From IMG/VR virus record IMGVR_UViG_3300031787_000001, positions 222,786 to 286,785 of that record: a stretch of DNA of 64,000 bases; one strand, 5' to 3'. Within the stretch, counting starts at the first letter, position 1; each line of letters opens with the position of its first letter. The notes under the pieces were generated by a model that worked only from the letters and a program-made list of their open reading frames with translations, made no database searches and was not told the DNA's origin. Of this stretch, positions 16,547 to 43,018 are shown piece by piece. Position numbers and translations under genes: made by a program. Source of the DNA: a virus.

Positions 16547-16556
16547 ATTTTTTTAT

Positions 16557-22382: not shown

Positions 22383-23169
22383 TTTCAATATCTTTAATGT
22401 CTTTTATTTTAAAGTGTAGAAATGGTTGTTCATTTGGTAGATCAAAAAATTCATAATTATCTTCTTCTACATCATATACACCATACCCATGATGTTTCAC
22501 TGTTTCACCAAAATTTTGTTGTATTAAACTACCAACCATTATTGCCTTACCACCATTAGGTAATTTGAATTGTTGTCTTTTATGTATATCTCCACATAGT
22601 AATAAATCAAGATCAACAAAATTTAATCTGTCATATGCATCTTCAAATTCAAACCCCAAATCTGTTGATAACCCCTGTATTGGTCCGTGAAATAAACCAA
22701 CATAAAAATGATCCTTTTCTTTTGTGAATACAGGTCTTTGATTATGTTGATACAAAGAATATACGATCCAACTAACATTATCATCAACGTATTCACCACT
22801 ATCTTTATAATATGTAATCCATTCATTTTTTAATAATTCAACAACCGGTGATATACTATCTAATCGTTGAACGTTGTTTTCCAAGAAGTCGTGGTTGCCG
22901 GGTATAATAACAACTTTACCAAATTTAGTTAATTCATTTAAAAACCAACTCGTTAACATTAATTGTTCATTTGATATGTTAATCTTTTGATGTGCAATAT
23001 CTCCCGTGATAACTATTCTTATATCAGAAGGTCCAATATTATCATCATACCAATCAACAACTTTTTTAGCAAGTTCATCTATCAATATTTCAAATTGTCT
23101 TTTATATAGATCATGTAATTGAAATGTTCTGATATGTAAATCAGAAATATGTATAATCTTCTTTATCAT
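22351..23169 (-). CDS. SbcD/Mre11-like nuclease subunit (gp47-like)
   Basis: 272 residues with all metallophosphoesterase motifs in order: HISDLHIR (7-14), GDIAH (56-60), GNHD (91-94), FHG (160-162) and GDIHKRQ (193-199). These bind two metal ions and cleave phosphodiester bonds. Partnered with the gp46-like ATPase it resects double-strand ends during recombination-dependent replication and degrades host DNA in T4. It overlaps the RecB-like nuclease gene by four bases (ATGA-type coupling). A short C-terminal region (FFDLPNEQPFLHFKIKDI) corresponds to the capping/partner-binding part. Confidence 0.93.
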   Translation of the reverse strand: MIKKIIHISDLHIRTFQLHDLYKRQFEILIDELAKKVVDWYDDNIGPSDIRIVITGDIAHQKINISNEQLMLTSWFLNELTKFGKVVIIPGNHDFLENNVQRLDSISPVVELLKNEWITYYKDSGEYVDDNVSWIVYSLYQHNQRPVFTKEKDHFYVGLFHGPIQGLSTDLGFEFEDAYDRLNFVDLDLLLCGDIHKRQQFKLPNGGKAIMVGSLIQQNFGETVKHHGYGVYDVEEDNYEFFDLPNEQPFLHFKIKDIKDIENETEEHVNIG

Positions 23170-25202: not shown

Positions 25203-25808
25203 CTAATTTTTTTCTAATTTAATCATGTTAACATAACCAATAACAGCAGTTGCGGCATCACTCATATCAAAGTTTTCTTTCTTTAATTTGTTATTTTTAT
25301 CATATAACCACTTAACATCTGCACAAACCGCATTTACATGTTCCCAAATTACTTGTTTTTTATCAATGTCTTTTGGATAACCACCAAACAAAACATTTTT
25401 ACCTTTGTCATTTTTATTAACTAAATCAGGAAATGCAAATTTTCTTGCATTATATGTTGATATAAAGGTGGGCACAATTCCCAAAGTATCATAAACTATT
25501 TTACAAATCATTGTATTATACCTCAATAAAGTCTGAACGGTATAAATGTTATTTGAATTTAACAATGGTTCTTCGATGATTACACGAAGGATACCCATAT
25601 CTTTATAATTCTCGATATGTTTTTTGAAGGCATCCGCCTTCTTCAATAATTCCTCAAGTTTGTCTTCAGGTTGAGGTTTTATTTTTGGAGAAAAGTGTGT
25701 TAATTCCAATAATTTAGAACCAGTTAAATCAAATAACGCAAATCCAATTGTCTTTGTTGATATATCCAAACCTAATATCTTTGGACTATTCTTTAATTTT
25801 ATACTCAT
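25203..25808 (-). CDS. RuvC-like Holliday junction resolvase
   Basis: 201 residues with an RNase H-fold endonuclease layout: first strand ILGLDISTKTIGFALFD (Asp15), acidic strand RVIIEEP (Glu79/80) and C-terminal helix NFDMSDAATAVIGYV (Asp181, Asp184). These four carboxylates bind the two catalytic metal ions in RuvC-type resolvases. The phage would use it to resolve recombination intermediates and branched concatemers before packaging, the role of gp49 in T4. It lies between virion genes and the replication operon and is likely expressed from the virion side. Confidence 0.9.
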   Translation of the reverse strand: MSIKLKNSPKILGLDISTKTIGFALFDLTGSKLLELTHFSPKIKPQPEDKLEELLKKADAFKKHIENYKDMGILRVIIEEPLLNSNNIYTVQTLLRYNTMICKIVYDTLGIVPTFISTYNARKFAFPDLVNKNDKGKNVLFGGYPKDIDKKQVIWEHVNAVCADVKWLYDKNNKLKKENFDMSDAATAVIGYVNMIKLEKN

Positions 25809-25846
25809 AAAAGAATATATACGTGATATTTTTAAAAATGTAAAGT

Positions 25847-27952
25847 TTAGAAGTCTATTTTGATTGCAAAAACTTGTGTTCCTCTTCTAACAATTGGTTT
25901 CGCTGATTTAGCAACAACCAAGGCTTCTTTATTACTATCTAAAAGAGCAATCTCAGTTATCTTTTTATCTTCACCAGCAACATATGTTGGGTTCTGTGTT
26001 TCGGTAAATTGTGTACTTGGTAAGTTAACCAAAAAATTCATAACCTCAATGTCACTTGATCTAACAACTTTTATACTTCCAGGAAACGGTTGTTCATCAC
26101 CAAACTTTGGTTGCGTTGATGGTTCATGTACAATGTAACCATTACCAAAATAATTGTCTATCACATATTGTGTTCCGCTGTTATATTTTGAAAAATTAAC
26201 AATAAATGAAATGTCTCTTAAATTTACGGGGTCAAGAAAATTAACTCCGTTACCTCCCGCTTCTGTTGTAAAATCAATTTCAATCCAATCATCAGGTACG
26301 GGTCTTTGACCTGTTTTTGTTATTTGTACTAAAATTTTAAACTCAGTACCAACGAATCCATCAACAACATTTGGAAGAGTTGTTTTCATATAACTAAATG
26401 CGGTGGTATCGAATTTAACAACTAAACTTGTTGGTATTGTTGTGCCCTGTATTTTTGAATAATAATTACAAGGTAAACCATTTAAACCTTTATCTGAATT
26501 GGTAAAAGTATATGTCACCCATATTGTTTGATCTGTTGATCCTGTTAAAACTGAATTTGGTGCTGTGGTGTCACTTGGTACCAAATATAATTTTGGTGCA
26601 TCTAAAGTATATCTTCTATTGCTTCTGTAATCTAATAAAGCAACTAATTCTTGGTCATCAAAAATTATTGTTTTTTTAGTGTAAAAAACTTTACCAACTC
26701 TATTATTTTGTTCATCAAGTAAGTATCTATATGGTATATTTGAATTACCATTTAAGATTGGTGATGGTGTCGTGATTTCATAATCAACTGTATCCATATT
26801 AAATAACGCTCCAACAACATTACTTGTATTTCTATGGTAACAAATAAATGGTATAAATACTTGGAAGTATTCTAAATCAGTTAATGGTAAACCATTTTCA
26901 TCTTCTAATATTGAATCATTAACATTGTTATTGGTACTTAAATAATCATCATATTTAAAGAATCTTTCAGGATCAAATCTTATATCACCTAACTCTGAAT
27001 AATGTATAACCGCCAATACCCTTTGTTCTTCAGGTGTCACGGTTATTGATTCACCAAAAGAATTTTTGTACGATGTGGTATTATTAATGGTTTGTCCGGA
27101 TGATGTTGTGTATCCTAAAAATTGTTTTGTTGATATGTGTTGATTACTTGTGAAACCTGTTAAGTTTATGTTTGTTAAACCACTATAACCTATAGGATTC
27201 TCATTCCACACAACATTTAATGTCCACGGATCGTGTTGATCCATTGGATCAATTGGTTGTGGTAAACATATCGGTGCAACACTAGTTGATGGTGGAAATT
27301 CTATTTGACATTTATTACAAACAACTTGTGCAAAACCTGTTAAAGTTGATAAGTCTGGTGTGGGTCTATCAAGATATATTGTATTTCCACTAATACTTAA
27401 AACTTTATAAATTAAACTATTTGATTGTCCGGTTATTATTGGAACATTTGGATCGGTCCCACCAAACTGATCGAATACCAACGTAATATATTCACAAGTT
27501 TGAAATGTATCTCCAGATAAAACATCAATAGAAGAAGAACCATTAATTGTGGATATATCGATTCTATCCGTCACACACATTACCTTTGTTCCTATACAAT
27601 CAATATCATCATATTCAATATATTGTGAAACAAATCCCGCGGGACCCATCGGATTTCTTAAAATGTCAGTATATGAATTTTGAACAGGGACCCCATAGGT
27701 TGTTGTTGTTACTGTTGTGTCTATTTTGTATGGATATTTAACAACTGTTTCTTTATCGTGTGGGGCAAAAACTTTTTGAAATGGTTTTTTAAAAGTACCA
27801 TCTAAATTTGTAAATGGTGCACTATAATCATATTCGGAATCACCAATTTGGAAATATGAAATTACAAAATTTCCCTTAGCGATTGAATTTCTACCTTTTT
27901 TTGTTACTCTGGCCGATAAAAACTCAGAGTTATTTTCTGTTAAAAAGCTCAT
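25847..27952 (-). CDS. Putative virion protein, conserved N-terminal domain
   Basis: 701 residues. The N-terminus MSFLTENNSEFLSARVTKKG followed by RNSIAKGNFVISYFQIGDSEYDY resembles a domain I recall from structural proteins of related large phages. The remainder is beta-rich, Asn/Thr/Pro-rich and without repeats or enzymatic motifs. One CNKC pair is present near residue 213. The C-terminus (KITEIALLDSNKEALVVAKS, then GTQVFAIKIDF) looks like a compact 'appendage-like' end. It is the last gene of the virion cluster. A baseplate, tail or neck component is likely; the exact role is unknown. Confidence 0.7.
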   Translation of the reverse strand: MSFLTENNSEFLSARVTKKGRNSIAKGNFVISYFQIGDSEYDYSAPFTNLDGTFKKPFQKVFAPHDKETVVKYPYKIDTTVTTTTYGVPVQNSYTDILRNPMGPAGFVSQYIEYDDIDCIGTKVMCVTDRIDISTINGSSSIDVLSGDTFQTCEYITLVFDQFGGTDPNVPIITGQSNSLIYKVLSISGNTIYLDRPTPDLSTLTGFAQVVCNKCQIEFPPSTSVAPICLPQPIDPMDQHDPWTLNVVWNENPIGYSGLTNINLTGFTSNQHISTKQFLGYTTSSGQTINNTTSYKNSFGESITVTPEEQRVLAVIHYSELGDIRFDPERFFKYDDYLSTNNNVNDSILEDENGLPLTDLEYFQVFIPFICYHRNTSNVVGALFNMDTVDYEITTPSPILNGNSNIPYRYLLDEQNNRVGKVFYTKKTIIFDDQELVALLDYRSNRRYTLDAPKLYLVPSDTTAPNSVLTGSTDQTIWVTYTFTNSDKGLNGLPCNYYSKIQGTTIPTSLVVKFDTTAFSYMKTTLPNVVDGFVGTEFKILVQITKTGQRPVPDDWIEIDFTTEAGGNGVNFLDPVNLRDISFIVNFSKYNSGTQYVIDNYFGNGYIVHEPSTQPKFGDEQPFPGSIKVVRSSDIEVMNFLVNLPSTQFTETQNPTYVAGEDKKITEIALLDSNKEALVVAKSAKPIVRRGTQVFAIKIDF

Positions 27953-27979
27953 ACATTAATAAATACATTTATTTTTATT

Positions 27980-30067
27980 TTACATTCCCGTACATTGGTT
28001 TAATCCATAAATTTTGTAATTATTCGTACCAATAGTAATTATTTGTGGATTTGTTGTTAATCCAATTCCATTTACAGCCAAATTAATTACTCTTAAACTA
28101 GCAACACCGATTTCACTAACACCTGTACTATCAGTCGCCGATGTGTTTCCGGCAGGTAATAATAAACTAGGTAAGGTCGCGTTTCCACTTACAAATGTTG
28201 TACACGTCGGATCACTAAATCTTCTAATGACAAAATCGAAATCTAATAAATCTAAAGTCGTCCCCGCAATCACATTGACTGTTCCATTAATAAATCCAGA
28301 ACCATCACTTTCACCAAATGCAACAATTTCAGCGGTTATTCCGGTTGGTGTTGGTGTACTAGTTGGTGTTGGTGTACTAGTTGGTGTAGGTGTACTAGTA
28401 GGAGTTGGAGTGCTAGTCGATGTAGGTGTTGGTGTACTAGTAGGAGTTGGTGTACTAGTTGGTGTTGGTGTTACGATGGGTAGTGAACTGCAAAGTGACA
28501 AATTAAATCCTAAGTTATTTAGTGAGTTAATTATCAGATCTGCATAATATGATGGTGTTGACGCCGCCAAAGTATTTAATTCATAATTAATGTTATTTCT
28601 TCCAGATAAACCATATGTTGATCCAGTATATAGTGTTGATAAGGATGTATCACCACTAACAGCCTGAATAAATGAACCATACTCGGTACTTCCAATAACC
28701 CTAAATATGGTTGCAAAATATCTCCCAAATGGTAATTGATTTAATGTACTGGTTAAAGCAACCATATCTGTATCATACTGAGGTGTTCTGGCGGTTTCCC
28801 ATGATGAGACACCCCATTCTGCACCGTATGGACTATTTTCATCCGAAAAAACTAAATTAATAACAGTGGTTATTGATGGTGAACTACCTGTATTATTCAT
28901 CCATTGGAATATTCGTTCGTCACTAATTGATGTGATACTAACTCTTTGATCATATAAGACAGAATCATTATTAAAATAAGGTAATAAACATGGTTTTAAT
29001 ATTCCACTGTTCATATTGATTAATGGAGATAATGTTGAATTCATCGATCCGGATGAATCAAAATAAATATTTATTTCCGTATTTTCATCTATTTCTGGTA
29101 TGGTCAATTCATAAGTAAAATCACAAGGTAATGTTGTTCCTGTTACTTGAATATCACATGATGGTGGACATTCCTCAAATCTACTTGAAAAAATATCACC
29201 AACATTGGATGTGATTGCAGACCACATATACGTTGGTGGATTACTTACAGGATAATCAACATCATATGATAAAATAGAATGTAATGTACCATTACCAATA
29301 TCATCTCTTACTTCCCATCTATTATTAGATTCATTCCAAAATACATAATAATCATCACAACATATTTGATAATATGGTCTTTCATTGTAAACACCCATTG
29401 GATAATATAGTGTTGTATTATATTCTGTATCTGAACTATAACATAAATGATTAAAGCATACGGGGCATCCAATAAAAACAACCCTTACTTGAAATCCACC
29501 TTGTTTTTTTGGATCAGTTAATGTATTATTTTTTATACTACCGTCCCCATGTTCAAGAAAAATATAAACAGGTTTGTGTGTTGGACTAAAATTTTTAAAT
29601 TCATAAATAAACCCAGTAGATGGATTTGTTGTTGCCGTTGTTACAAATGTTGAAGCCGAAATTTCATATGTGAAACCTGTATATATACGATAACTATTTG
29701 GTACACCGTTAACGACAGATGAATGATTACCAAAATTTGTTGCACCTGAAACCAAATCATATATTGTAACACTACTATTAGTACAACTACCTGTGGTACT
29801 AACATCAAGATAAAAATCTACAGTATCATAACATTCATAAACCTTACTATCATTAGTATATATTGTAGTTATTGTTGATGTACCATCAACAATATCCGTT
29901 ACTTTTATAAAGTACCTCGTATCAAATTCCAAATTTGTTATAACAACAGATGATGTTAGGCTTGGAAATGCCCCAAAAAACACATATGAACTTGATGACC
30001 CTCCACTATATTCTACAATAAAGTTATGTGGTATTTGTAAATTATATAACCTAACATTTAAACCCAT
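27980..30067 (-). CDS. Adhesin-like virion protein with VWA-type domain and PT linker
   Basis: 695 residues. N-terminal fibronectin-like strands come first (residues 1-75). A module at about 215-280 contains YYVFWNESNNRWEVRDD, related to repeats in the 2329-residue protein. The next domain begins EINIYFDSSGSMNSTL (331-346) with the DxSxS MIDAS motif of von Willebrand A domains, which bind ligands through a metal ion. At about 540-600 a Pro-Thr-Ser linker follows, then a final beta domain (AEIVAFGESDGSGFINGTV). Modular binding domains on flexible linkers suggest a surface adhesin that binds host glycans or proteins. The VWA call rests on the DxSGS motif and surrounding hydrophobic pattern. Confidence 0.75.
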   Translation of the reverse strand: MGLNVRLYNLQIPHNFIVEYSGGSSSSYVFFGAFPSLTSSVVITNLEFDTRYFIKVTDIVDGTSTITTIYTNDSKVYECYDTVDFYLDVSTTGSCTNSSVTIYDLVSGATNFGNHSSVVNGVPNSYRIYTGFTYEISASTFVTTATTNPSTGFIYEFKNFSPTHKPVYIFLEHGDGSIKNNTLTDPKKQGGFQVRVVFIGCPVCFNHLCYSSDTEYNTTLYYPMGVYNERPYYQICCDDYYVFWNESNNRWEVRDDIGNGTLHSILSYDVDYPVSNPPTYMWSAITSNVGDIFSSRFEECPPSCDIQVTGTTLPCDFTYELTIPEIDENTEINIYFDSSGSMNSTLSPLINMNSGILKPCLLPYFNNDSVLYDQRVSITSISDERIFQWMNNTGSSPSITTVINLVFSDENSPYGAEWGVSSWETARTPQYDTDMVALTSTLNQLPFGRYFATIFRVIGSTEYGSFIQAVSGDTSLSTLYTGSTYGLSGRNNINYELNTLAASTPSYYADLIINSLNNLGFNLSLCSSLPIVTPTPTSTPTPTSTPTPTSTSTPTPTSTPTPTSTPTPTSTPTPTGITAEIVAFGESDGSGFINGTVNVIAGTTLDLLDFDFVIRRFSDPTCTTFVSGNATLPSLLLPAGNTSATDSTGVSEIGVASLRVINLAVNGIGLTTNPQIITIGTNNYKIYGLNQCTGM
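28341..28473. repeat. Pro-Thr-Ser linker repeat DNA
   Basis: Imperfect 18-bp units of the type GGTGTTGGTGTACTAGTT (plus strand) encode TPTPTS in the minus-strand gene. The same units recur at 32431-32500, 33041-33200 and 35593-35800. Confidence 0.85.
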
Positions 30068-30107
30068 GATATAATAAATATAAATTGTTTATTTTTAATA
30101 ATAAAGT

Positions 30108-30773
30108 TTATGGAACCGCAGCACTTGATGTTAATCCTACTGCTTCGGCATATTTTAACCAAGTTTCAACTCCTGCAAATTTTTCATTTTGACAATCATA
30201 TATCATTCCTTTATCAAGTAATTTTAATAAAAATAATCCTCTAAAATTTTCACTTTTGGTATCCAGATAATCAAGTAAACATTTTATAGAAATATTACCT
30301 AATAATACTACACCTTTATCTAAAATCACTTTAGTGGTATTATATCCAAATTCAGAAATAATTCTATTTAATACTGTATTAAAATCTAAATATGGGCAAT
30401 CATTTACTATATTTATACAATTCTGAAATGGTGGATCTCCCGTTGCACCTAAAGAATTTAAAAGTATGTCATAAGAATTAATATTACCATAAGCACTAAT
30501 ACAACAAGTTAAACCACTTACTGGACATGTACCATCATATGTTAAACTAACCGCTTCCGCATATTTCAAAAAAGTTTCAATCGACGCAAATACTGTGGTA
30601 CCCGATAGATCACATTCATCACAACATATAGTTTGAGTATATGCTGATGTAGAAAATCCTTCATCTAATAATTCATCCCAAGTACTTAAAACATCATCAT
30701 CGGTAGGTGATGGTGAATTATCTTCACAATAATTTATCAAAAATTCAAGAATATTATATTTTCTATTACTCAT
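30108..30773 (-). CDS. Hypothetical virion-cluster protein with duplicated motif
   Basis: 221 residues, cysteine-rich. Two copies of a short unit are visible: VFASIETFLKYAEAVSLTYD (about 60-79) and FAGVETWLKYAEAVGLTSS (about 200-218). The intervening sequence has CC pairs (QTICCDECD, GLTCCISAYG). The duplication suggests a two-domain helical protein. It lies between adhesin-like genes and the large structural gene. I do not recognise the family; a capsid or tail decoration, or a fibre-associated role, would fit the position. Confidence 0.65.
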   Translation of the reverse strand: MSNRKYNILEFLINYCEDNSPSPTDDDVLSTWDELLDEGFSTSAYTQTICCDECDLSGTTVFASIETFLKYAEAVSLTYDGTCPVSGLTCCISAYGNINSYDILLNSLGATGDPPFQNCINIVNDCPYLDFNTVLNRIISEFGYNTTKVILDKGVVLLGNISIKCLLDYLDTKSENFRGLFLLKLLDKGMIYDCQNEKFAGVETWLKYAEAVGLTSSAAVP

Positions 30774-30785
30774 ATATAATTATTT

Positions 30786-31748
30786 TTAAGGTATAATAGG
30801 GCTGGGTGGTGGTGTTGTTAAGTCTTCAATTGTTTTATTAAATCCTCCATGATCACCCATTCTATAATCACGACCATGACATAAAAAGAAAATACCACTA
30901 CTCATCCAATCTTGGATTGTATCTCCAATCGTATTAATTCCGTCATAATTATTTATGGTGTTACCGGTATAAAAATTTATTAAGTTATCTAATCCGGTTG
31001 AATTTCCGATTGTACCCACTTCAAAAATTCCAATCTCAATTAAACTACTAAATTTAGTTGGATCTAGAGTTTTTAACAATTGAATTTTTTCTTTAAATCC
31101 ATTGTTACATGAAGAATATTTGTATACCACACCATCTATTTCTTCATCAGGTGGAATTGCATTTGATATCCCGACAGTGGGAATGTAATCCAATAAATAT
31201 GTTTGTGCCGACATAGCGTAGTTTATACAACAACCTGTTAAGGCATTTATATACGTTTTATCATTTGGAACTGAAGCAGTCTCAAACATTGATAGGTACG
31301 TGTAAGTGTTACCTATATAATAAAAATCATTACATGGTGGACAAATTAGACATGATTGTGATTGACCCAAACCATTACTTAAAAATACATCGGTAAGCCA
31401 ATCTATCGGATTTGTTAAACTTGGTTCTAGTGATGGATTTTCATCTAATTCGATTATTGATTTTAATGTCAAATCAAAAATAAAATCAAATGGATTTATT
31501 GGTTGGCAATATTCAATGTCATGTGCCTTAACTTTAATTAATATATTTCCACATTCTTCACACGAAAGTTTTAGAAAATAATGTTGTAAAGTATTCGATC
31601 CGAGTACTAAATCTGTTATTTCAAAAGTATGTTCAAATGAATTTGTAACATTGGTTGCAATCAAATTAACCGTTGTACTTGATGTTAATCCGGAGTATAT
31701 ATCGAACGCTTGTCCTGTTGGTACTAAATTTATTGTTGTTTTAAACAT
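30786..31748 (-). CDS. Hypothetical virion-cluster protein
   Basis: 320 residues. The N-terminus is beta-rich with Ile/Thr/Val strands (FKTTINLVPTGQAFDIYSGL). Two cysteine pairs (CEEC near 97, CLICPPC near 153) could bind metal or form disulfides. The C-terminus is disordered and Pro-rich (LTTPPPSPIIP). It sits in one run with the adhesin genes, whose cysteine-rich style it shares. No catalytic motif recognised. It may be another receptor-facing accessory or a linker between fibre parts. Confidence 0.65.
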   Translation of the reverse strand: MFKTTINLVPTGQAFDIYSGLTSSTTVNLIATNVTNSFEHTFEITDLVLGSNTLQHYFLKLSCEECGNILIKVKAHDIEYCQPINPFDFIFDLTLKSIIELDENPSLEPSLTNPIDWLTDVFLSNGLGQSQSCLICPPCNDFYYIGNTYTYLSMFETASVPNDKTYINALTGCCINYAMSAQTYLLDYIPTVGISNAIPPDEEIDGVVYKYSSCNNGFKEKIQLLKTLDPTKFSSLIEIGIFEVGTIGNSTGLDNLINFYTGNTINNYDGINTIGDTIQDWMSSGIFFLCHGRDYRMGDHGGFNKTIEDLTTPPPSPIIP

Positions 31749-31766
31749 ATCATATTTTTTATTTTA

Positions 31767-32714
31767 TTAACAAGTACCTCCACTGTAATTAATATTACAT
31801 GGTATACCTGTTGTATATATTTGTAAATCAGAAAATGAGAATAATGTTGTTGGCCAAGTTTTACTACATACCAATGTCTCTGATGGTGATCCAAAAGTAC
31901 CTGATGGTATAACAACATCTTGAGATGTGTCATCACAACAATCTGTTATTGTAACAATTTTTGTTGATCCTGCGTTATATATCCTGAAAGATCTACATTC
32001 ACTTGAACAATCAAAAGTGGGTATTGATGGTTGTGAATTATAAATAATCTGTGCACTTCCAGTAAGATCATAAACTCTATTATTACTTACCCATCTACCA
32101 ATTGATTGTGTTGATGTGACATAATTCGTACATAAACACAATGGATAAAATAAAGCATCACAAGGATTACTTGGGTCTCCACAAAGAACAAGTGGATTTG
32201 AATAATTCACTGGTATACCTAAAGATGATGAATTTATTAATAGTTGTTGATTATTAGATATGGCCCCTGATGGTATACATACGTTACCCTCAATAAAAAC
32301 GGCATTATTTAACCATGGTAACCCATTCCCTGTACCTAAAGATGCGGTATTAGAAAGAAGTAACCCAACTTGACCACATTCAAATGATGATGGACAATTA
32401 ACAGATGGTACAACCGGTGGTGGTGGTGTTATTGTTGGTGTACTAGTAGGTGTCGGTGTTGCCGTAGGTGTTGGTGTACTGGTGGGGGTTGGTGTTGATG
32501 TTGGTACAGGTAAATTATTGGGTATTTCTAATGTACATTGTTTTTCAATACTAGAAAAATATATAACATACGTACCAAACACATAATTACTAATATATGT
32601 GTACGGTAATACTTGTGATCCTAAATTAAAAGTACCGCCAGTATCGGGGAAAAAAGTTATTTCTCCTGTTTCCCCCTCATAATTTTGTGTTTTTATTATT
32701 ATTTCTTGTATCAT
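31767..32714 (-). CDS. Adhesin-like virion protein with PT linker
   Basis: 315 residues. The N-terminal domain (residues 1-68) contains NYEGETGEITFFPDTGGTFN and GSQVLPYTYISNYVFGTYVI. It is clearly paralogous to the N-terminus of the neighbouring 779-residue protein. A linker of Pro-Thr-Ser repeats follows (about 70-98), then a cysteine-rich C-terminal domain (CPSSFECGQVGLLLSN; LYPLCLCTNYVTSTQSIG). The shared N-terminus probably docks both proteins to the same virion structure, while the different C-termini would bind different targets. That division is inferred from the domain layout. Confidence 0.7.
   Translation of the reverse strand: MIQEIIIKTQNYEGETGEITFFPDTGGTFNLGSQVLPYTYISNYVFGTYVIYFSSIEKQCTLEIPNNLPVPTSTPTPTSTPTPTATPTPTSTPTITPPPPVVPSVNCPSSFECGQVGLLLSNTASLGTGNGLPWLNNAVFIEGNVCIPSGAISNNQQLLINSSSLGIPVNYSNPLVLCGDPSNPCDALFYPLCLCTNYVTSTQSIGRWVSNNRVYDLTGSAQIIYNSQPSIPTFDCSSECRSFRIYNAGSTKIVTITDCCDDTSQDVVIPSGTFGSPSETLVCSKTWPTTLFSFSDLQIYTTGIPCNINYSGGTC
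32431..32500. repeat. Pro-Thr-Ser linker repeat DNA
   Basis: Four to five imperfect units of GGTGTTGGTGTACTAGTA type, encoding PTSTPTPT in the 31767-32714 gene. Closely related to the linkers of three neighbouring genes. Confidence 0.85.
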
Positions 32715-32743
32715 CTTTTATTAAATACCTAAAATTATTTTTT

Positions 32744-35083
32744 TTATGGACAACTAAAAGTATTTAATATCACACCACCACTATCAACTTGTATTGCTAA
32801 TCGTGATGTTCCAGAACAAAAAGTTGTCGAATTAACAATAACTATCCAATTTCCACCACCATCAGACGGAGCGGTTAATCCCGGGTCATCATACATTATC
32901 ATACCAGCACTAAATACAGGTATGTCTCTATAAAAAGCTCTTGCACATGTTGATCCCGCAGCACAAGCCAATCCCGATGTGGAATAAGTACTCACATTTC
33001 CGGCGAACACATATGAACTTGGTGGTGTACTACTAACCGTAGGAGTTGAGGTACTAGTTGGTGTTGGTGTACTAGTAGGAGTTGGTGTACTAGTTGATGT
33101 AGGTGTTGGTGTTGCAGTAGGAGTTGGAGTACTAGTCGATGTAGGTGTTGGTGTTGCAGTAGGAGTTGGAGTACTAGTCGATGTAGGTGTTGGTGTTGGT
33201 ATTATAAATGATCCACACTGTTGTAATATACCAGATGATCCCGAATATATTACACCTATAGTGTAAGTGTCGGATGGTAATCCCGAAAAAGTGTCATGGA
33301 AATAATTCGTATTAAAAGGTGAACTATATACATCTTGATCGATAATTGTTCCTGATGAATTTAATGCACATACAATTATTTGTGTTATTGATGGATTATT
33401 TTTTACAGAATTTTCAATACCAACTTCATAACCAAACTCTGTTGAATTTATATCACTTTGTATTGTAAAAGGACAATTTAATGTATATGTTATTGGGCAA
33501 CCTGAAGTTGGGTCCACACTAAAAAATGGTGCAACATAGTCGGGATCACCAACTGTATTATTTTTAATTTCACCTGTTGGGGTATTTGTGTTTATGTCAT
33601 ATTTTTCAAGTGTGTCAACTATTACATCACCCGTGTTTTCCAATCCGGTAACCGCGTTATTGTAAAAAACAACACTACCTTCACTTCTGTCTACTATTAC
33701 TCCTCCCCAACCTACTGTGGGACCAGGACTTACTGACATTAAACTATTTGTCCCGTATTCATTTGTAACTTGTTCAATACCGGATAGATAATAATTAGGT
33801 ATCAATCTTTTTATTTCATATGTGTCTCTATCAATTTCATAAGTTTGATATATTACAGTTGCATCTCCATTCACATTATTAATTAATTGAGTTGCTATGT
33901 ATAACTTACCGCTAACGGGATCTAAATTAAAAGTATAAACACCAACATCTTTACCTTGTAATCTTTTATTAAAAATAATTGTTGTTACAATTGTTGCTCC
34001 CGTATTTGTTGAATTTGGATTTAAAACCCACATTCTTCTTCCACCAATATCACTTACATAAACTTTGTTTTTTTCTATGTCATAAAATAGATATTGCCAA
34101 TATCTACCAGATCCACCGGGAACTGAGGTAGATGATCCTGGTAATGTTATATAGGTTATAAAATTGAAATTATCATCAAAAACACCGATATTACCAACTG
34201 TACCTGAACCCGAAGTTGACGTTACCCATAAATATGTTTGAGAGATCCCTGTACCAATTTCACGTGCAGTTGGTGCCCCTCCAACAAAATAAGTGTTTAG
34301 TTGAGTATTTCTTGGTATTATTGTTTTTGGTAAAGAAGGATTTTCTCTATTTATTCTTATTAAATCACCTGTTGGTGTTATTCCTGAAAGTGAACCGCCT
34401 CTAATGTCACCATATATAAAATTTTCTGAAACGTAAAGAAAATTTCTTTCGAATATATTATCACTACCGTATGATATTTGTGTTATGGTGTTTCCGGTTG
34501 TGTCATAAATGATCATTCCTGTTATAATAGTATCAGTTGGTAACGTATTAAGTGGCGTTTGATTTGTACCTGTAAAATATATTCTCTTGTATGTTTTATC
34601 AAAAGTGCTAATATACAATGCAGGTGCTCTCAACCAACTTACATCACCAGTTGCACCAGTGATAAATGTTACATTTGATACGGATGTAGATGCTGTGGTT
34701 GGTGTAAACCAATATATATTACCCCTAAGATTGTCATCCGCGTCTGCAACCCAAACTCTATTTGTATCATCGTCATACCAAACATAAGATGGTGATGATA
34801 TACCAGATAGTGAATTAGTGATTAAAAAGTTTGCACTTTGTTCACATGTGAAATCTAAAATTCTCCAAGCAAGTTCGGGTGACGTATCTATTAAAGTTGA
34901 CGAACATGTTATACCAAAACCAGAAAAATATAAAAAATATGTACCATAGGGATACGTTGACTCATATTGATAAGGTATAACATGTGAACCTAAATTAAAT
35001 GTTCCGCCGGTATCTGGATTAAATGTTATCTCCGCAACTTGGCCATTATAATTTTCACTTGTTAATGTAACATTATATTTCAT
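32744..35083 (-). CDS. Adhesin-like virion protein, propeller-like body and PT linker
   Basis: 779 residues. The N-terminal domain (NYNGQVAEITFNPDTGGTFN and following) is paralogous to that of the 31767 gene. Residues about 75-490 carry recurring strand patterns with 'xWVADADDN', 'KVYVSDIGGRRMWVLNP', 'KLYIATQ' and 'TNTGATIVTTIIF', reminiscent of beta-propeller proteins of the NHL type. An Ig-like domain follows, then Pro-Thr-Ser repeats (about 626-680) and a cysteine-containing C-terminal domain (LACAAGSTCARAFYRDIPV). It is likely a large receptor-binding or accessory virion protein. The propeller call is tentative and based on repeat spacing only. Confidence 0.7.
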   Translation of the reverse strand: MKYNVTLTSENYNGQVAEITFNPDTGGTFNLGSHVIPYQYESTYPYGTYFLYFSGFGITCSSTLIDTSPELAWRILDFTCEQSANFLITNSLSGISSPSYVWYDDDTNRVWVADADDNLRGNIYWFTPTTASTSVSNVTFITGATGDVSWLRAPALYISTFDKTYKRIYFTGTNQTPLNTLPTDTIITGMIIYDTTGNTITQISYGSDNIFERNFLYVSENFIYGDIRGGSLSGITPTGDLIRINRENPSLPKTIIPRNTQLNTYFVGGAPTAREIGTGISQTYLWVTSTSGSGTVGNIGVFDDNFNFITYITLPGSSTSVPGGSGRYWQYLFYDIEKNKVYVSDIGGRRMWVLNPNSTNTGATIVTTIIFNKRLQGKDVGVYTFNLDPVSGKLYIATQLINNVNGDATVIYQTYEIDRDTYEIKRLIPNYYLSGIEQVTNEYGTNSLMSVSPGPTVGWGGVIVDRSEGSVVFYNNAVTGLENTGDVIVDTLEKYDINTNTPTGEIKNNTVGDPDYVAPFFSVDPTSGCPITYTLNCPFTIQSDINSTEFGYEVGIENSVKNNPSITQIIVCALNSSGTIIDQDVYSSPFNTNYFHDTFSGLPSDTYTIGVIYSGSSGILQQCGSFIIPTPTPTSTSTPTPTATPTPTSTSTPTPTATPTPTSTSTPTPTSTPTPTSTSTPTVSSTPPSSYVFAGNVSTYSTSGLACAAGSTCARAFYRDIPVFSAGMIMYDDPGLTAPSDGGGNWIVIVNSTTFCSGTSRLAIQVDSGGVILNTFSCP
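33041..33200. repeat. Pro-Thr-Ser linker repeat DNA with a longer period
   Basis: Units of GGTGTTGGTGTACTAGTA type plus a larger repeat (GTAGGTGTTGGTGTTGCAGT followed by AGGAGTTGGAGTACTAGTCG) occurring twice in succession, encoding TSTSTPTPTATPTP in the 32744-35083 gene. Confidence 0.85.
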
Positions 35084-35108
35084 TATACCTAAATATATTT
35101 TTTTTAAT

Positions 35109-38100
35109 TTATGTTGTAAAGTTTAAACATATTTCATAATATGAACCGAGGTGGAACAACGGATCATCAGTTGTAAAATCAATAAACAATGTGTGTGTTG
35201 TTCCTGCCGATAAGAAATATGGTCCAGGTACAATGATATTCTGAATAACAGGACCCATTGTACATCCTTGATTCAAGTCTTGTGATGTTGCAGATGCTAA
35301 CAATGTTCCATCAAGATAGAAAGCTATGTTTTCATAACCCGTATCTTGTAATTCGGCTAAACCACTAAAACTTAAGTGTAAATAAGTATCAACCGGACCT
35401 ACTGTTATTGTTGCAGTTGCGGTACCATTTTGTGTTATATCACACGTACCACCACAGTTTAATGAATCCGCAATATTAAATCTAACACATAAATTATTTG
35501 GTGATACTACCCACTCAGCCGTTTCGCAACCCGTGACTCCTGACGTATTCTTAGTTGTTGTCCATATTAAACCAGATACAGGTAATGTTCCTGTTGGCGT
35601 AGATGTACTAGTAGGTGTTGGTGTAGATGTACTAGTAGGTGTTGGCGTACTAGTAGAAGTAGGTGTTGGTGTAGATGTACTAGTAGGTGTTGGCGTACTA
35701 GTAGGTGTTGGCGTACTAGTAGAAGTAGGTGTTGGCGTACTAGTTTCAGTTGGTGTTGGTGAAGGTGTTGGGGTTGGAGTTGCGGTAGGTGTTGGTGTGG
35801 GTGCTAATTGTAACTCAGCGGTACAACACTCTGGTATTTGTGATGCACCGTAAACCACTAATGACGGAATTGTTTGTATTAATGTTGGTGTATGTGGATA
35901 TGTTAAAGGTATATTATATATTTTACCATCCACGTTCGCAACATATAATGAACCATTATCTTGGAATATTCCATATGGTGTTGTGGCAGTTGTATTTAAA
36001 TCTGAACTTGTTTCAAATAAACCTGTATTATAATCATATTGAACTAAAAATACACCACCTAATTTTGTTATTGTTATTAAAATTTTATTATTTGTAGTAA
36101 ACATTATATCTCCGGCAATTGACTCAGTTGGTAGTAATGAAAATATTACATTTACCGTAGCCACAGAATTACTTACGTCTATTTCTATGATTTCCCACAA
36201 ACCAGATATACCATTGTATGATGATGACAATAATTTAGTATCATTTATTGCACATAATCCAGCACCAATATTTATTCCACTTGGTAAAGATACAATCCTA
36301 TTAAATGTTGTCGACCAAGGATTAGTACTTATATCCCATTCATATATAAAGGAATTATATAACCACATCTTATTTAATGTGTGAGCAATATCTGCGGAAA
36401 ATATAAATGTACCTAAATTGGTTTTAGTGTTTGAAGAATAATCATAATAATAAACATCATTAGAATCATCATTAATTAAAACACTACATTCAGGTAATAT
36501 TAGATTTGATGGTATTGAACATTCACCTACTGATGAGATTCCAGATAATGGTAATGTGGAACTCGTGTTACCAGTCCAAATGTATGTATCATTAGAAACA
36601 GGATATTCACTATTGTTACCTAAGTAACCATATATTTGACCGCCAACTGTATTTGTGAAAAGGTCATAAGTTTCCCTATGTTCCCATATAGTTGTACCAC
36701 TATTCCAAACAACATATGTAATAAAACCAGGAATAGAAAGACTAATTAACATATAATTAATTTTACCATCATAATATGTGTAAGATTGTCCACTAAAAAT
36801 AAAATTAGAACTGTTTCCGGAAGTTAAATAAAAGCATAATTCAGGTAAACAATCATTTAACTGTGAATTTACTAAACCAAATTGATCTTCAATACGAATC
36901 CAATTTTCTGTCGGTTCATTTGTTGGTGTGTCAAGGTTAACATTTAAATAACTTAAAACACCATATACAGTATCGGGTATTTTGTTTACAACATCATAAT
37001 TAGAATAGTTTTCCCATCTTGTTGTACCACTATTCCAAACAACAACACCGAATGGATAAGTCATGCCTGTTCCTGTATTTGTGTAACCTAAACTATAGTA
37101 GTACTTACCATCATGGTATCCTGCAGGGTATCTAAGATTAACATTAGATCCCATATTACCAAAAGTTTCACCAGGGTCGTATGTAAAACATACTTGTGGT
37201 GGACAATCATTTACTGTTGTAATGTACGCTCCAAGTTCAGGATTATAATCATAAACCCATTGATATTGTGAACTACTAATTGGTGTGTTTCCACTATAAT
37301 TTAAATACGAATATAATGTTCCTGATGTTCCGACATTTACGTCAAAGTTTTCCCAATTTTCCCATCTAGTTGTGCCACTGTTCCATATCAAATAATATGG
37401 GAAATTTACATCAGTAGATTTATAATAATTTCTATTGTTATACACACCAAATATTTCGTAGATATATGAAGTATATTGTGTTGTTGATGAGTATGTTCCT
37501 ATTAAACAAATGTCACTACATATTTCATCACTACAATCATCCGGTAATTGTTGTGTTGGTGGTATACAATTTCCACTAATTGAATTTATTATTTGGTAAC
37601 TTGCAGATGGTAAATCAATAATATTCCAAGAATATGATCCTTCAACGATTGGTAAATTTGGATTTTCATTATATTGGTACAATGTACCTGAATTTAATGA
37701 TGATCTATATTCCCATCTATTATTATTTATCGACCAAGAAACATAATAAACAAACGTATCGTTTTTAGGACTAAAAATATATGATGGTTTTTCATTAACG
37801 ATAACCCCCGGACTAACTGTTACAAATTCAGGGTTAGAAAACGCTTCGGCAGCAATTTCAAAACATATAGTTGGTTCGGTAAAATATTCTGTAGGGCAAT
37901 CTTCAATATCACTATAGAATTGTTGTGGACAATCTTCTATTAAATTAGAAACATGTGTTTGATATTTGTGTTGTAGTAATACTTGATGACTATCGTTACC
38001 ATTAAATATTATTAAATCTTCACCGACAGGTACATCTCTACCAGAAGTTTCAAAATTAAAATTATAATACATATTTGGTTCACAGTAATCAAGATCTACC

Positions 38101-41100
38101 GCAATAACCTCAATAGGAAAACCATCGACATTCAATAAGAAATCACCATAATTTTCATAATAATCTTTTGGATATGGACAACATGGTTCTGGTGGTGTTT
38201 CTCCGGGTAATTGTAAATGTTCAGGTATTCTCTCATCAAGGAAATAATCTGTTTTAGTTACAATACCTCCATCAACTATTTTGTTTGTATATACTCTTAA
38301 TTTTGTTGTTGGTAAAACTTCAATAACTGTTGTTGTATTATTTACTGTTCTTCCCGTTATTAAACTTTTCTTAACAGATCCAAGACATTCTATACTTTTT
38401 ACTTCATTATAATCATATTGAAAAGTAAAGGCATATCCATATAGATAAGCAAGTTTAAAATCTTGATATGAGAAATTACATGGTTTATATGTTGCGGTTA
38501 ATAAAATATCACCAACAACAACGTCCTCAACATTTGTTATTTCAATATCACCAAAATTAATATAATGTACTATTGCGTTGTAATCTATTGTACCGTTTTC
38601 TATTTGAATTATTGGAAACTGTCCAACAATTTTTAAAACTTTACTATCAGACAATAATCCATAATCATAAGATGGTTCATATTTTAATCTTGGTACGAAT
38701 ATACAGTCAATAAAATTATCACAAAATGTGACCGCTGTTTGTGAAGAAATTAATGTTTCACCACTACAAGGTAGTGAACATCCACTCATATATGTATTGA
38801 TAACAAATTGTTGATAATATTCTTTAGACTCATTATGTTCATATTTTTTCTGAAATCCGTCTATTGATATTTTTGTCTCACAATTAGCAGCATCTAAAAA
38901 ATTTAATTCTATTTTTTTACTAAGAGAAGCACCTGATATAGATATTTTACAATTATCAACTTCACCAAATTTAATTCCTGTACTTGTTGTTCCAGTTTTA
39001 CCTGTGATAAACATACAATCAGAGTGGTAATAAGTAGAAGAACCAAAACCACCTTTTTGTATACCAACATTATTTTTAAGTACAATATCTAAATCAATAA
39101 TAGGACAATAGTCTGTTTGACACTCTGTTGTATTTACATTAATATCTAAATCATTATTACATATTGGATTTATTGGTGTATATTCAGTGTCAAATCTATA
39201 TATAAAATAATCTTCAACAGAACAATCATTAAAATCATATTTTATTGATGTGAATCTAACTTTTTCTTTACCGTCAATATCGGTGAAAAATTCAAAAGTT
39301 AACTTTGGTTTATATTCCCATGTGTATGTTGAATTAGGTTGTTGTAGAAAAGGTTCGTAATTTTCATATCCCGCAGTATATCCCGTTGTAAATTTATTTA
39401 CAACATTTTCAACCAACCCAGATAATGCAACCACCCAAAGTTCTTTTATTTTATCGACATCGGGATCTACAAATTCTTTATAGTCACATATCAAAGGCAA
39501 TGCCGTTGTACCGCTATCAGGTAAAATTGTACAACCAGTCATTGGCATTGGATTAAATAATTTAGCACTGTTACTTGTATTTGTTGTCCCACTAACAAGT
39601 ACACAATAAGGGTGTCCAGAAAACACATATCCATCAATTTCTATTATTGGACAATATGTTACCCCTGTTATATTGATTAATCCTCTAAAATTTTCTTCTT
39701 CACCTAATATTGTTTCTAAATCTTCATTTATCGCATCACCAAAATTTGGGTATAAATTCTCAACTATTGTTTTTGGTTGACATCCTAAATTATATTTATA
39801 TTTTGGTCTACCAAAAAAGTTATTATCTATTAAATTACCTCCTGTCCATAATGTAGTTGCGGGAATTACTTGATCAAGTATTTGCATCCAATATGGACTC
39901 ATTCGTTGTATAAACTCATGTGAATCAATATAATTATAAGAAGTAAAACCAGTGCTAGTGAAATAAGATGTGTAAACATCCTCGAGTGCAATGTAATTTT
40001 TCTTATATCTTATAACGTGGGAATTTTTTAATTGGGAATGTAATGTCTTTTCTAAAAATTCCGCAAATGTGACACCTGTTTGTGGATATAATGTATTTGA
40101 ACCGAATGTTAATAATAAATCTCTAGATTTTCTCCAAATATCATAATCGATCGCCCTACTTGGTGATAAGTAGACTTCAATATTTTTTCTATTTAAAACA
40201 TAAGATGAATTTCCATCATAGAAACTGGCCTTAACGTTATCTATTTCAGAATCCAAACCATATCCAGTATCTAATCCTGGTAATGTTCTAAAAACGTCAA
40301 AATATTCTTCACCATAAGAATATGGTTTTGCCTTTGTTTTAATCGTTTTTGTTCTACCTGTTAAAATAGAATTTTCTTCATCAAGTATATCGGGTGTTCT
40401 ATGTTTTAAAGTCATATCATACCATCCCGAACCTTTCTGAAAAAATATATCACTTATTGGATCAAATGCTCTTCTAGGTAATCCGGTTTTTTCATCAACA
40501 GGATAACCCTCTCTATTAAATGTTGTTAATCCTTGTTCTATATTTTTTGTATAAAGATATGTTGTTGGTGAAAATAATGCTGTCGTTAAAAATTTACTTC
40601 TTTGTAAAACATCATAGATATCATTTTCGAGGTCACTAGAATTTGGCATTGATGTGACTCTGTAAATATATTCATCAATTCTTATTAAAGGTTCAGGTGC
40701 ACCCAAAAATCTTAGAAAGAAATGTATCGATGATCTAGTTCCTTTTGATTTATATAGATAGGCTAAATTAACTAATAGTCTTCTATAGAATTCATATTCG
40801 GCTTCAATTAAATTTTTACCAATACTTTGTGATGAATAGTTAGATCTACTTCTACTATACAATGCACTATCTAATGTATCTTCATCAAATAAACTAACAG
40901 TGGTCAAACCTAAATTTTCCGCTAAATTCTTAAGTAGAATATCGGGTAAATTATTTATACCATCATAACTTACATTTCTCATGTAAGCGATGTTGTCTAT
41001 ATATTTCTTTATTTTATCAAAACTTTGTCCATATAATTGAAAAACACTTTCTGCCTTTTTTTCATCAGAATCAAACTCATACAATTGGGGTGATGTTAAA

Positions 41101-42098
41101 AATCTAATAAATAAATTAGATTTATAATTATCGATTTCGTCTCCTAAATTTTTTAAACTATCTAGATACCCATCAAAATCAGAACCAATTATTTTTATAT
41201 TCCAACCATCTTTAGATAATGGCCAATTATATGCAACTTGTATTAAATTTGTATTTGTTTTATCAAAATTTTCTCTTGGCACAACAAAAAATGCAGTAAA
41301 CTTTGGATTAGTTTCTCTATTAACTAATTGTTCCTCAATTTCATCTAAACTTTTATAAAACTCCTCAACAATACCATCATTTGGTCTAACTAATATATTT
41401 TCAGTATAAGTCGTGTCGCCAGAAAACGGATTACCCTTTATTTTTAATTTAAAGTTACTTTTACTGTCTGGTTGTACAAAGTCAACTATTTCGTAAGGTT
41501 GTTCTTTGATTACTGTTACATATTTCTTAAATGAAGAATAAAAGTTTCTAATATTAGTATCACCATCAGGTAAGGTATTACTTTGTGGTCTACTTAATTT
41601 TATTTCAAACGTATTAAATAGTCTAGGTAACTCAACTTCAAAAATTGTTGTGTCTCTATCAATATCGTATGATATATTATAGGCCGTATATTGATTTGTT
41701 ACAATTAAACTGTCTTTGTCTATTAAAAAAGATGCGGGATATTTTTTAATAATATTTTTAATTGATACTTCTAATCTTCTAGATAACGACCCGAATAAAG
41801 ATTTACCAGCATCATTTTTAGCATTTCTAAATCTCAACTCTCTGTCACTTTTTTTAGTCGATGACATTAATGGAGTTGAAAATTCATTTTCTTCTTCTTT
41901 TAACGTGTCTAATGTTAAAAAATCCGAAAACGGACTTGTTCTAAAATTTTTACTGTCTTTTTCAGGAATTGCTCTATCTAAAGCAAAGTTGGTATTAGTT
42001 AATTGACTAGACCCATCGGTAATTTGCACACCGACTAAACTATCACTAAAGGTTTCTCTTCCACTTGCTGCCTGACTTGGTACTTTTCTTCTTGCCAT
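35109..42098 (-). CDS. Giant tail/baseplate-associated structural protein (2329 aa)
   Basis: The longest gene of the window. The N-terminal ~900 residues (MARRKVPSQAASGRETFSDS; PLSKDGWNIKIIGSDFDGYL; FHFLGAPEPL-like SIHFFLRFLGAPEP) look like a virion scaffold domain. At least four copies of a module with WN(S)GTTRWE and WEx-like cores (about residues 1455, 1572, 1690, 1800) follow, each with a YxY-L-x-Y-(S/N) pattern. A stretch with propeller-like strands precedes a PT-repeat linker (about 2094-2169) and a C-terminal jelly-roll-like domain of about 150 residues. A single protein that spans structural attachment and a distal binding domain is typical of huge phage tail proteins. It overlaps the next upstream gene by one base. 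Confidence 0.75.
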   Translation of the reverse strand: MARRKVPSQAASGRETFSDSLVGVQITDGSSQLTNTNFALDRAIPEKDSKNFRTSPFSDFLTLDTLKEEENEFSTPLMSSTKKSDRELRFRNAKNDAGKSLFGSLSRRLEVSIKNIIKKYPASFLIDKDSLIVTNQYTAYNISYDIDRDTTIFEVELPRLFNTFEIKLSRPQSNTLPDGDTNIRNFYSSFKKYVTVIKEQPYEIVDFVQPDSKSNFKLKIKGNPFSGDTTYTENILVRPNDGIVEEFYKSLDEIEEQLVNRETNPKFTAFFVVPRENFDKTNTNLIQVAYNWPLSKDGWNIKIIGSDFDGYLDSLKNLGDEIDNYKSNLFIRFLTSPQLYEFDSDEKKAESVFQLYGQSFDKIKKYIDNIAYMRNVSYDGINNLPDILLKNLAENLGLTTVSLFDEDTLDSALYSRSRSNYSSQSIGKNLIEAEYEFYRRLLVNLAYLYKSKGTRSSIHFFLRFLGAPEPLIRIDEYIYRVTSMPNSSDLENDIYDVLQRSKFLTTALFSPTTYLYTKNIEQGLTTFNREGYPVDEKTGLPRRAFDPISDIFFQKGSGWYDMTLKHRTPDILDEENSILTGRTKTIKTKAKPYSYGEEYFDVFRTLPGLDTGYGLDSEIDNVKASFYDGNSSYVLNRKNIEVYLSPSRAIDYDIWRKSRDLLLTFGSNTLYPQTGVTFAEFLEKTLHSQLKNSHVIRYKKNYIALEDVYTSYFTSTGFTSYNYIDSHEFIQRMSPYWMQILDQVIPATTLWTGGNLIDNNFFGRPKYKYNLGCQPKTIVENLYPNFGDAINEDLETILGEEENFRGLINITGVTYCPIIEIDGYVFSGHPYCVLVSGTTNTSNSAKLFNPMPMTGCTILPDSGTTALPLICDYKEFVDPDVDKIKELWVVALSGLVENVVNKFTTGYTAGYENYEPFLQQPNSTYTWEYKPKLTFEFFTDIDGKEKVRFTSIKYDFNDCSVEDYFIYRFDTEYTPINPICNNDLDINVNTTECQTDYCPIIDLDIVLKNNVGIQKGGFGSSTYYHSDCMFITGKTGTTSTGIKFGEVDNCKISISGASLSKKIELNFLDAANCETKISIDGFQKKYEHNESKEYYQQFVINTYMSGCSLPCSGETLISSQTAVTFCDNFIDCIFVPRLKYEPSYDYGLLSDSKVLKIVGQFPIIQIENGTIDYNAIVHYINFGDIEITNVEDVVVGDILLTATYKPCNFSYQDFKLAYLYGYAFTFQYDYNEVKSIECLGSVKKSLITGRTVNNTTTVIEVLPTTKLRVYTNKIVDGGIVTKTDYFLDERIPEHLQLPGETPPEPCCPYPKDYYENYGDFLLNVDGFPIEVIAVDLDYCEPNMYYNFNFETSGRDVPVGEDLIIFNGNDSHQVLLQHKYQTHVSNLIEDCPQQFYSDIEDCPTEYFTEPTICFEIAAEAFSNPEFVTVSPGVIVNEKPSYIFSPKNDTFVYYVSWSINNNRWEYRSSLNSGTLYQYNENPNLPIVEGSYSWNIIDLPSASYQIINSISGNCIPPTQQLPDDCSDEICSDICLIGTYSSTTQYTSYIYEIFGVYNNRNYYKSTDVNFPYYLIWNSGTTRWENWENFDVNVGTSGTLYSYLNYSGNTPISSSQYQWVYDYNPELGAYITTVNDCPPQVCFTYDPGETFGNMGSNVNLRYPAGYHDGKYYYSLGYTNTGTGMTYPFGVVVWNSGTTRWENYSNYDVVNKIPDTVYGVLSYLNVNLDTPTNEPTENWIRIEDQFGLVNSQLNDCLPELCFYLTSGNSSNFIFSGQSYTYYDGKINYMLISLSIPGFITYVVWNSGTTIWEHRETYDLFTNTVGGQIYGYLGNNSEYPVSNDTYIWTGNTSSTLPLSGISSVGECSIPSNLILPECSVLINDDSNDVYYYDYSSNTKTNLGTFIFSADIAHTLNKMWLYNSFIYEWDISTNPWSTTFNRIVSLPSGINIGAGLCAINDTKLLSSSYNGISGLWEIIEIDVSNSVATVNVIFSLLPTESIAGDIMFTTNNKILITITKLGGVFLVQYDYNTGLFETSSDLNTTATTPYGIFQDNGSLYVANVDGKIYNIPLTYPHTPTLIQTIPSLVVYGASQIPECCTAELQLAPTPTPTATPTPTPSPTPTETSTPTPTSTSTPTPTSTPTPTSTSTPTPTSTSTPTPTSTSTPTPTSTSTPTGTLPVSGLIWTTTKNTSGVTGCETAEWVVSPNNLCVRFNIADSLNCGGTCDITQNGTATATITVGPVDTYLHLSFSGLAELQDTGYENIAFYLDGTLLASATSQDLNQGCTMGPVIQNIIVPGPYFLSAGTTHTLFIDFTTDDPLFHLGSYYEICLNFTT
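35593..35800. repeat. Pro-Thr-Ser linker repeat DNA, longest array
   Basis: About a dozen 18-bp-type units with repeated ACTAGT hexamers, encoding PTSTPTPTST in the C-terminal part of the 2329-residue gene. Period and sequence match the other three linker arrays. Confidence 0.85.
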
Positions 42099-43018
42099 TA
42101 TATATTTGTAATAGTATCAAAATCTAATGATTGGTCAATATCTGTTTTTCTTTCTCTAACCTCATACAATGTGTCATTTAGATCATCTTTAATCTCATAC
42201 AAGTTGTATTGTCTATAGATATTGTTATTATTATCGTAAATCGTATAGATACCCGGTGCAACCGCCTTAGTTTGATTACCATAAAGTGCGTGTGCTAATG
42301 TAGTTGCATCATGTTCAACCATCTCGATTTCAATTGTAGTTGGATTTAAAAAAGTATTTGTTAAAATAATTTTTTGTGATGGTTGTCCAATAAAAGGTAC
42401 CGTATTTGGTTTACTGGATGGTGCGGAGGACGGTGTAACAGTAAGAAACATTAAATTTGTCGCTTGATCAGTGTACTGATATCTTATCGCTTTTTGAGTT
42501 GTATTTGTCAAATTTGATGCAATTGGTGTACAATAAAATGATGAAGTTACGACTCTATAAAAATTTGGTATTTTAGTATTGTTATTTGTGTTGATATACT
42601 CTATTCTATACCCAACCAATCCTTGTGGTGTGAATTTATTTCTATCTTCGGTTGGAACGTTACTTATATCAATAATTAATCCTCTAACTGAAGGTAAAGA
42701 AGCCAAAATACCACAATCGGTTATTGTTGTTCTTATTTGTTTGGGTCTAATGTGTAAGGTATATATACCTAATTCGGAAAAATCACTAGAGGATAATTTT
42801 AAATTATATAAACCACCTAATATTTCAACATTTGGTGCATTATTGTCATCGGTTGTTTCATTATTATGAAAAACCGGTGTTAAAATGTCCTGAGAGGCTA
42901 ATTTTTTTAATGTAACCTCAGATGTTGTCAATCGATTTGCAACATAATGATAATATATATCAACATCTTGTGGTGATATATCCGATGGTCTAACTATACC
43001 GTATGATCCTACTGCCAT
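42098..43018 (-). CDS. Putative structural protein of the tail/baseplate cluster
   Basis: 306 residues. The N-terminus MAVGSYGIVRPSDISPQDVD and the following YYHYVANRLTTSEVTLKKLA suggest a conserved phage structural domain. The C-terminal half contains a strand-rich domain (GQPSQKIILTNTFLNPTTIE, IEMVEHDATTLAHALYGN). No motif for enzymatic activity is seen. It is translationally linked to the 2329-residue gene (overlap of one base) and follows the 43045 gene by 26 bases. Position suggests a baseplate or tail attachment component. Confidence 0.7.
   Translation of the reverse strand: MAVGSYGIVRPSDISPQDVDIYYHYVANRLTTSEVTLKKLASQDILTPVFHNNETTDDNNAPNVEILGGLYNLKLSSSDFSELGIYTLHIRPKQIRTTITDCGILASLPSVRGLIIDISNVPTEDRNKFTPQGLVGYRIEYINTNNNTKIPNFYRVVTSSFYCTPIASNLTNTTQKAIRYQYTDQATNLMFLTVTPSSAPSSKPNTVPFIGQPSQKIILTNTFLNPTTIEIEMVEHDATTLAHALYGNQTKAVAPGIYTIYDNNNNIYRQYNLYEIKDDLNDTLYEVRERKTDIDQSLDFDTITNI

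Follow-up and report, generated by a model that had tools for sequence, protein, structure and literature searches.

Do the repeat-coded linkers of neighbouring adhesin genes in a large phage mark the places at which these genes exchange their C-terminal ends? The window analysed here comprises 64,000 nucleotides (nt), the end part (222786–286785) of the 286,785-base virus record IMGVR_UViG_3300031787_000001, and contains four minus-strand genes in which a Pro-Thr-Ser array is followed by a C-terminal domain: 27980 (695 amino acids, aa), 31767 (315 aa), 32744 (779 aa) and 35109 (2329 aa). An original prediction, made from the letters of the window, had described near-identical linker DNA in these genes and proposed that recombination could swap their C-terminal ends. 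Comparison with relatives bears out the swapping of ends, which change partners through joins concentrated at the arrays. Our preferred reading, to which we assign a probability of roughly 60%, is that the genes encode modular jumbo-phage adhesins whose tips are swapped at the arrays through general recombination.

Transfer of C-terminal domains between genes and genomes

Relatives were collected with a conserved tail-region gene as anchor (25847–27952, minus strand), which yielded 7 loci directly and 142 by profile search, the best 80 of the 142 being used, and with the N-terminal part of 35109, for which the best 80 of 275 were used. Neither query had a relative among 50,697 phage records, and the anchor protein had none in the genome contigs searched. 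Loci shorter than 6 kb, short loci of the G000 searches, the window itself and L009 were left out, with L018 standing in and L009 restored for the unit-sharing test described below. Before counting, antisense-like frames, open reading frames of fewer than 120 aa and then frames contained in another were removed (439 reduced to 249). Of 93 non-redundant locus clusters, 81 contained array genes and 55 had at least two of them, and 42 of the 44 related phage groups with at least 3 kb of upstream sequence had array genes on the upstream side of the anchor. Array length in the representatives had a median of 40 aa and reached 984 aa.

When the 249 distinct array genes were divided at the arrays, 605 segments in 251 families resulted. 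The N-terminal families are large and recur over many phages, and the C-terminal families are small and numerous: N-termini of the 35109 type carry 27 C-terminal families in 37 genes, those of the 27980 type 21 in 26, and, of the 29 C-terminal families with two or more occurrences, 20 are joined to at least two N-terminal families. Among pairs at least 88% identical, C-terminal segments matched fully, partially or not at all in 10, 1 and 17 cases (n = 28), compared with 33, 5 and 5 for N-terminal and 7, 4 and 16 for internal segments. C-terminal and some internal domains have thus been moved between genes and genomes in this phage group.

Individual cases illustrate these moves. The C-terminal domain of 27980 (27983–28333, minus strand; 117 aa) is missing from the orthologue in L023, a locus ~78% identical to the window, where the gene ends early; a 42%-identical version of the domain is placed there at the end of a different gene type with another N-terminal module (7620–8609). 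The pre-array region of 27980 (28487–29092, minus strand; aa 326–527) is 39% identical to a family 17 domain (L101), which is C-terminal in the array genes of other phages and internal in 27980, where an array and another end domain follow. End-domain copies also occur within one genome, in L051 at 83% DNA identity and in L110 as an internal and an end copy at 76%. When L067 is compared with L069, a domain of ~133 aa lies between two arrays in one and a single array stands in the other.

A recent exchange separates L183 from L186. Their 97.5% identity over 16.0 kb stops inside the array of a 35109-type gene, well before the array ends in L183; beyond this point the two loci have different end domains and different beginnings of the following gene, and identity resumes at 93% at that gene's array. 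Farther along, a second exchange affects a domain between two arrays. One form of the swap was found in two metagenome assemblies (L186, L200) and the other in three (L183, L204, L205), and since each form recurs, a chimaeric assembly is unlikely.

Homology between relatives usually stops at an array and often restarts at the array that follows or close to where the following gene begins. In a breakpoint test with masked arrays, 79 locus-cluster pairs gave 94 gaps, of which 64 were non-homologous; the 30 gaps with detectable homology and gaps over 4.5 kb were dropped. Breakpoints in array genes lay within 30 nt of an array in 49 of 61 cases, or, counting each place once, in 34 of 43 against 20.6 expected, a value equalled in none of 10,000 simulations. 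A first, stricter run had given 36 of 46 in array genes against an expected fraction of 0.152; its expectation was less fair, and we therefore rely on the second.

Array DNA and the candidate mechanisms

The Pro-Thr-Ser arrays said to lie ahead of the last domain are present in all four genes, as tandem arrays on the minus strand: 28334–28489 in 27980 (52 aa, aa 527–578; tandem units 28344–28472), 32406–32522 in 31767 (39 aa; units 32418–32505), 33014–33211 in 32744 (66 aa; units 33039–33198) and 35574–35801 in 35109 (76 aa; units 35592–35803). Their units, of 18, 24 and 42 nt, are genuine tandem repeats with cross-gene families D1/D2, and at the protein level the linker pattern gave 3 matches against 0 in 100 shuffles. 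For DNA likeness, the null model kept the protein sequence fixed and drew codons from the arrays' own codon frequencies in 1000 simulations. Exact in-frame 18-mer repeats inside single genes numbered 43 against 1.25 expected, with no simulation as high, an excess that indicates recent tandem duplication. Units common to different genes of the window amounted to 28 of 213 against 6.7 expected (4 of 1000 simulations as high; 2.5 expected with genomic codon usage). This excess stems mainly from 27980 and 32744, whose arrays have units in common (match rate 0.091 against 0.008 expected); the 35109 array shares no units beyond chance with either (match rate 0.000). The predicted near-identity of linker DNA thus holds inside each array and, between genes, for 27980 with 32744, but not for 35109 with those two. 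The arrays encode Thr and Pro with codon frequencies near the genomic ones, and the one clear increase is in Ser AGT (0.57 versus 0.30). Across 205 array genes from many phages, arrays in different genes of the same genome matched on synonymous units at 4.7 times expectation, compared with 1.3 times for unrelated genomes. Some same-genome pairs lie far above the codon-usage expectation, as in L023 (0.49 versus 0.02) and likewise in L101, L082, L099 and L173.

The mechanism that we propose starts from adhesins of the tail or baseplate region built from a conserved N-terminal part, a repeat-coded Pro-Thr-Ser linker and an exchangeable C-terminal domain, a build found repeatedly in this large group of uncultured phages. 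The arrays would serve as joints, being alike in DNA, frame-keeping (the units are multiples of 3 nt) and open to cutting anywhere without damage to a fold. Changes in the number of units in an array are observed as well. The exchanges would be the work of general recombination functions encoded by the phage itself, in mixed infection or between gene copies. The UvsX and gp46/47 functions pointed out earlier can be recognised in the window as a UvsX-like recombinase gene (60418–61425; PHROG 97, E = 4e-13; RecA Pfam below the cut-off), an SbcC-like, gp46-type gene (18828–21167; PHROG 77, E = 7e-51) and an SbcD-like, gp47-type gene (22351–23169; PHROG 100, E = 4e-17), to which a RuvC-like Holliday junction resolvase gene near the adhesin cluster can be added (25203–25808; PHROG 159, E = 3e-6), all on the minus strand. 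A baseplate wedge gene lies in the cluster's neighbourhood. The proteins are probably host-gripping adhesins; they would be located on the virion, and the exchanged tips would bind host surfaces.

Could the ends instead be switched within one genome by a programmed cassette system, through site-specific recombination, inversion or a diversity-generating retroelement? Several neighbouring genes with alike linkers, and the intragenomic end-domain copies in L051 and L110, would fit such a system, but we consider it very improbable. The 287-kb record, whose completeness is not stated, contains neither a serine resolvase (PF00239) nor a tyrosine integrase (PF00589), in agreement with the earlier statement that no site-specific recombinase is visible, and the absence from it of a reverse transcriptase (PF00078) speaks against a diversity-generating retroelement. 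Inverted repeats in 25800–42200 comprise 66 imperfect pairs; no long, well-matched pair around the end domains is among the 25 longest, of which the top one measures 36 nt at 75%, although short crossover sites would not stand out. A recombinase switch was rejected on these grounds, and an inversion is unlikely. Nor did any of the five same-species contigs carry an alternative end domain, and the idea of a fast cassette switch within the population was not borne out: arrays are mostly fixed in near-identical strains, which argues against a fast switch. That same stability is what would be expected of ordinary low-complexity linkers with fixed domain partners and no exchange, as three of the five contigs (L018, L019, L022) match the window without a difference along 22,103 bases and near-identical groups mostly have fixed arrays. 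Such a reading is scarcely tenable given the many end families per gene type, and the recent, multiply assembled swap between L183 and L186 contradicts it. The comparison across strains for array length and domain swaps that had been suggested gave a divided answer, with mostly fixed arrays and, in most groups, no end swaps among near-identical strains, and with swaps between other relatives. Array indels were seen in L020, L059, L068, L093, L094 and L108; relative to the window, L020 is shorter by 147 nt in the 35109 array and by a further 18 nt outside it. Fast array-length polymorphism was rejected, because assembly collapse is possible and the L059 indel is not a multiple of 3. L067 was excluded from the near-identical comparison. 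Outside the arrays, L021 lacks 176 nt of gene 27980 (at ~9010 of L021, window 28770–28945), out of frame and with a few base changes nearby, which may represent a null allele or an assembly error.

A harder choice concerns the role of the array DNA itself. The arrays may be held alike because they are useful, as genome-wide homology handles that graft tips in frame without a dedicated recombinase, with selection acting on linker DNA and protein; we put this forward tentatively. It is possible instead, though in our judgement also rather doubtful, that the linkers are passive: recombination would strike at random places, only hybrids joined through a flexible linker would survive, and the array likeness would be a by-product of tandem slippage within genes. 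The within-gene duplication, by far the strongest signal (43 versus 1.25), speaks for passive linkers, as does the lack of units shared beyond chance in most same-genome array pairs, and selection on hybrid survival alone would place breakpoints at domain borders and linkers. Against them stand the same-genome pairs, such as that of L023, in which unit sharing goes far beyond what codon usage can explain, and the L183/L186 break, which falls within the array. A causal role of the array DNA in recombination was not supported by the data, and array likeness between genes is sporadic and not general.

Several observations weigh against the preferred reading. For the median same-genome array pair, unit sharing does not exceed chance (0.0013 versus 0.0060), so exchange between arrays is sporadic and the idea that a genome's arrays are homogenised in general is rejected. 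At identities of at least 94%, with a 60-nt window, the breakpoint excess weakens to 11 of 14 against 7.2 expected (324 of 10,000 simulations as high). Masking combined with a 60-nt hit minimum may credit to an array breaks up to ~60 nt past it, and several exchange events share lineages (for example the L105/L110/L116 group) and are not fully independent. No end-domain change was seen in the five same-species contigs of the window or in most near-identical groups, and in another species all ten contigs have one array set, apart from one indel in L059. Short-read assembly may collapse repeats, and neither the 41-nt indel of L059 nor the 176-nt indel of L021 is divisible by 3.

Domains of the adhesins and the second cluster

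The remaining parts of the four genes were delimited as follows, all on the minus strand. Gene 31767 comprises an N-terminal module of ~64 aa (32523–32714) and a C-terminal part of 212 aa (31770–32405), and gene 32744 an N-terminal module of ~65 aa (34889–35083) and a C-terminal domain of 89 aa (32747–33013). The C-terminal domain of 35109 (35112–35573; 154 aa) is a predicted beta-sandwich with a weak match to carbohydrate-binding and adhesin modules. Its structural matches are to a common sandwich of mixed functions, with Z up to 9.8, and include gingipain adhesin, tail-fibre and carbohydrate-binding chains; no family is claimed. The AlphaFold model of the 27980 C-terminal domain was poor (pLDDT 36.5). 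Pfam and PHROGs searches of the adhesins gave no named family above the cut-off, and PHROG 15511 and 38031 matched them at linker arrays and array flanks. The pre-array region of 27980 is labelled VWA-like from its DxSGSM motif and not from a Pfam match; the L186 end domain has a VWA Pfam match below the cut-off. By eye, gene 35109 (35109–42098) contains several copies of a module of ~85 residues that is seemingly also present in 27980 and in L009 at 6500–7681.

Among the relatives, L107 has cadherin and SprB repeats, six of each, in a single array gene (2153–7132); adhesin modules of this kind look bacterial, yet they occur here in a phage. Two adjacent genes of L024 (4204–5022 and 5037–5849) have a related N-terminal module; the first, which lacks an array, has a Fib_succ_major domain by Pfam attached to a related base, and the second looks alike. 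Cadherin, SprB and Fib_succ_major modules and the below-cut-off VWA match in relatives, together with the predicted beta-sandwich of 35109, are in keeping with binding tips, and the SprB-type repeats of one relative suggest that the host is possibly a member of the Bacteroidota.

The arrays had been described for four neighbouring genes, and they are present there without being confined to them, as relatives and a second cluster show. In the same 287-kb record, far from the four genes, further arrays lie at 33.1 kb and 37.3–40.2 kb (G000:C1), in genes of 393 aa and 1150 aa; the 1150-aa protein has many arrays, and PTPTET units are common. The N-terminal module of ~65 residues is common to 31767, 32744 and the 393-aa gene. 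In this cluster, a 408-aa gene beside the many-array gene (L009 9940–11166) has a match to a family of phage proteases (PHROG 20754, E = 5e-23). Elsewhere in L009, an 842-aa gene (2834–5362) without a Pfam match consists of short repeats in which NN, I, G and F are frequent and which may form a beta-helix, and a 219-aa gene on the opposite strand (15918–16577) contains about four copies of a 141-nt repeat.

Comparison with known systems

Bacterial cellulases and surface proteins have extended Pro-Thr-rich linkers between folded domains, a feature also seen here. To our knowledge such linkers are not known as exchange joints in phages, and a literature search, with most subscription papers outside its reach, returned no description of Pro-Thr arrays in that role. 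The arrangement in this phage group suggests a simple rule by which large phages without a switching enzyme could renew their host-binding tips, in that flexible repeat-coded linkers double as joints. The array also marks the border between the conserved base and the probable binding domain, which aids the annotation of otherwise unrecognisable adhesins.

A close parallel is provided by the T-even gp38-type tail adhesins, whose variable segments are set apart by conserved low-complexity motifs at which exchange takes place. Breakpoints are likewise concentrated at such motifs here, less strongly at higher identity. In the gp38-type proteins, however, the joints are glycine-rich motifs (PMC12529663), whereas here they are long Pro-Thr-Ser tandem arrays in several genes and two clusters; the archaeal-virus comparison system is also glycine-rich. 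Phage receptor-binding proteins have been described with a conserved N-terminus, a variable C-terminus and recent domain reshuffling (Smug et al. 2023, PMC10684548). The adhesins studied here follow the same plan, with a conserved N-terminus and many alternative C-terminal domains; the main text of that study does not use 'linker' or 'low-complexity', while here the joint itself is identified. In polymorphic toxin systems, too, the C-terminal domain is replaced by recombination, but those are bacterial toxins (PMC3482391), whereas the ends described here look like binding modules. Compared with these systems, the new element is the joint: long Pro-Thr-Ser arrays common to several of the adhesin genes in a widespread group of jumbo phages.

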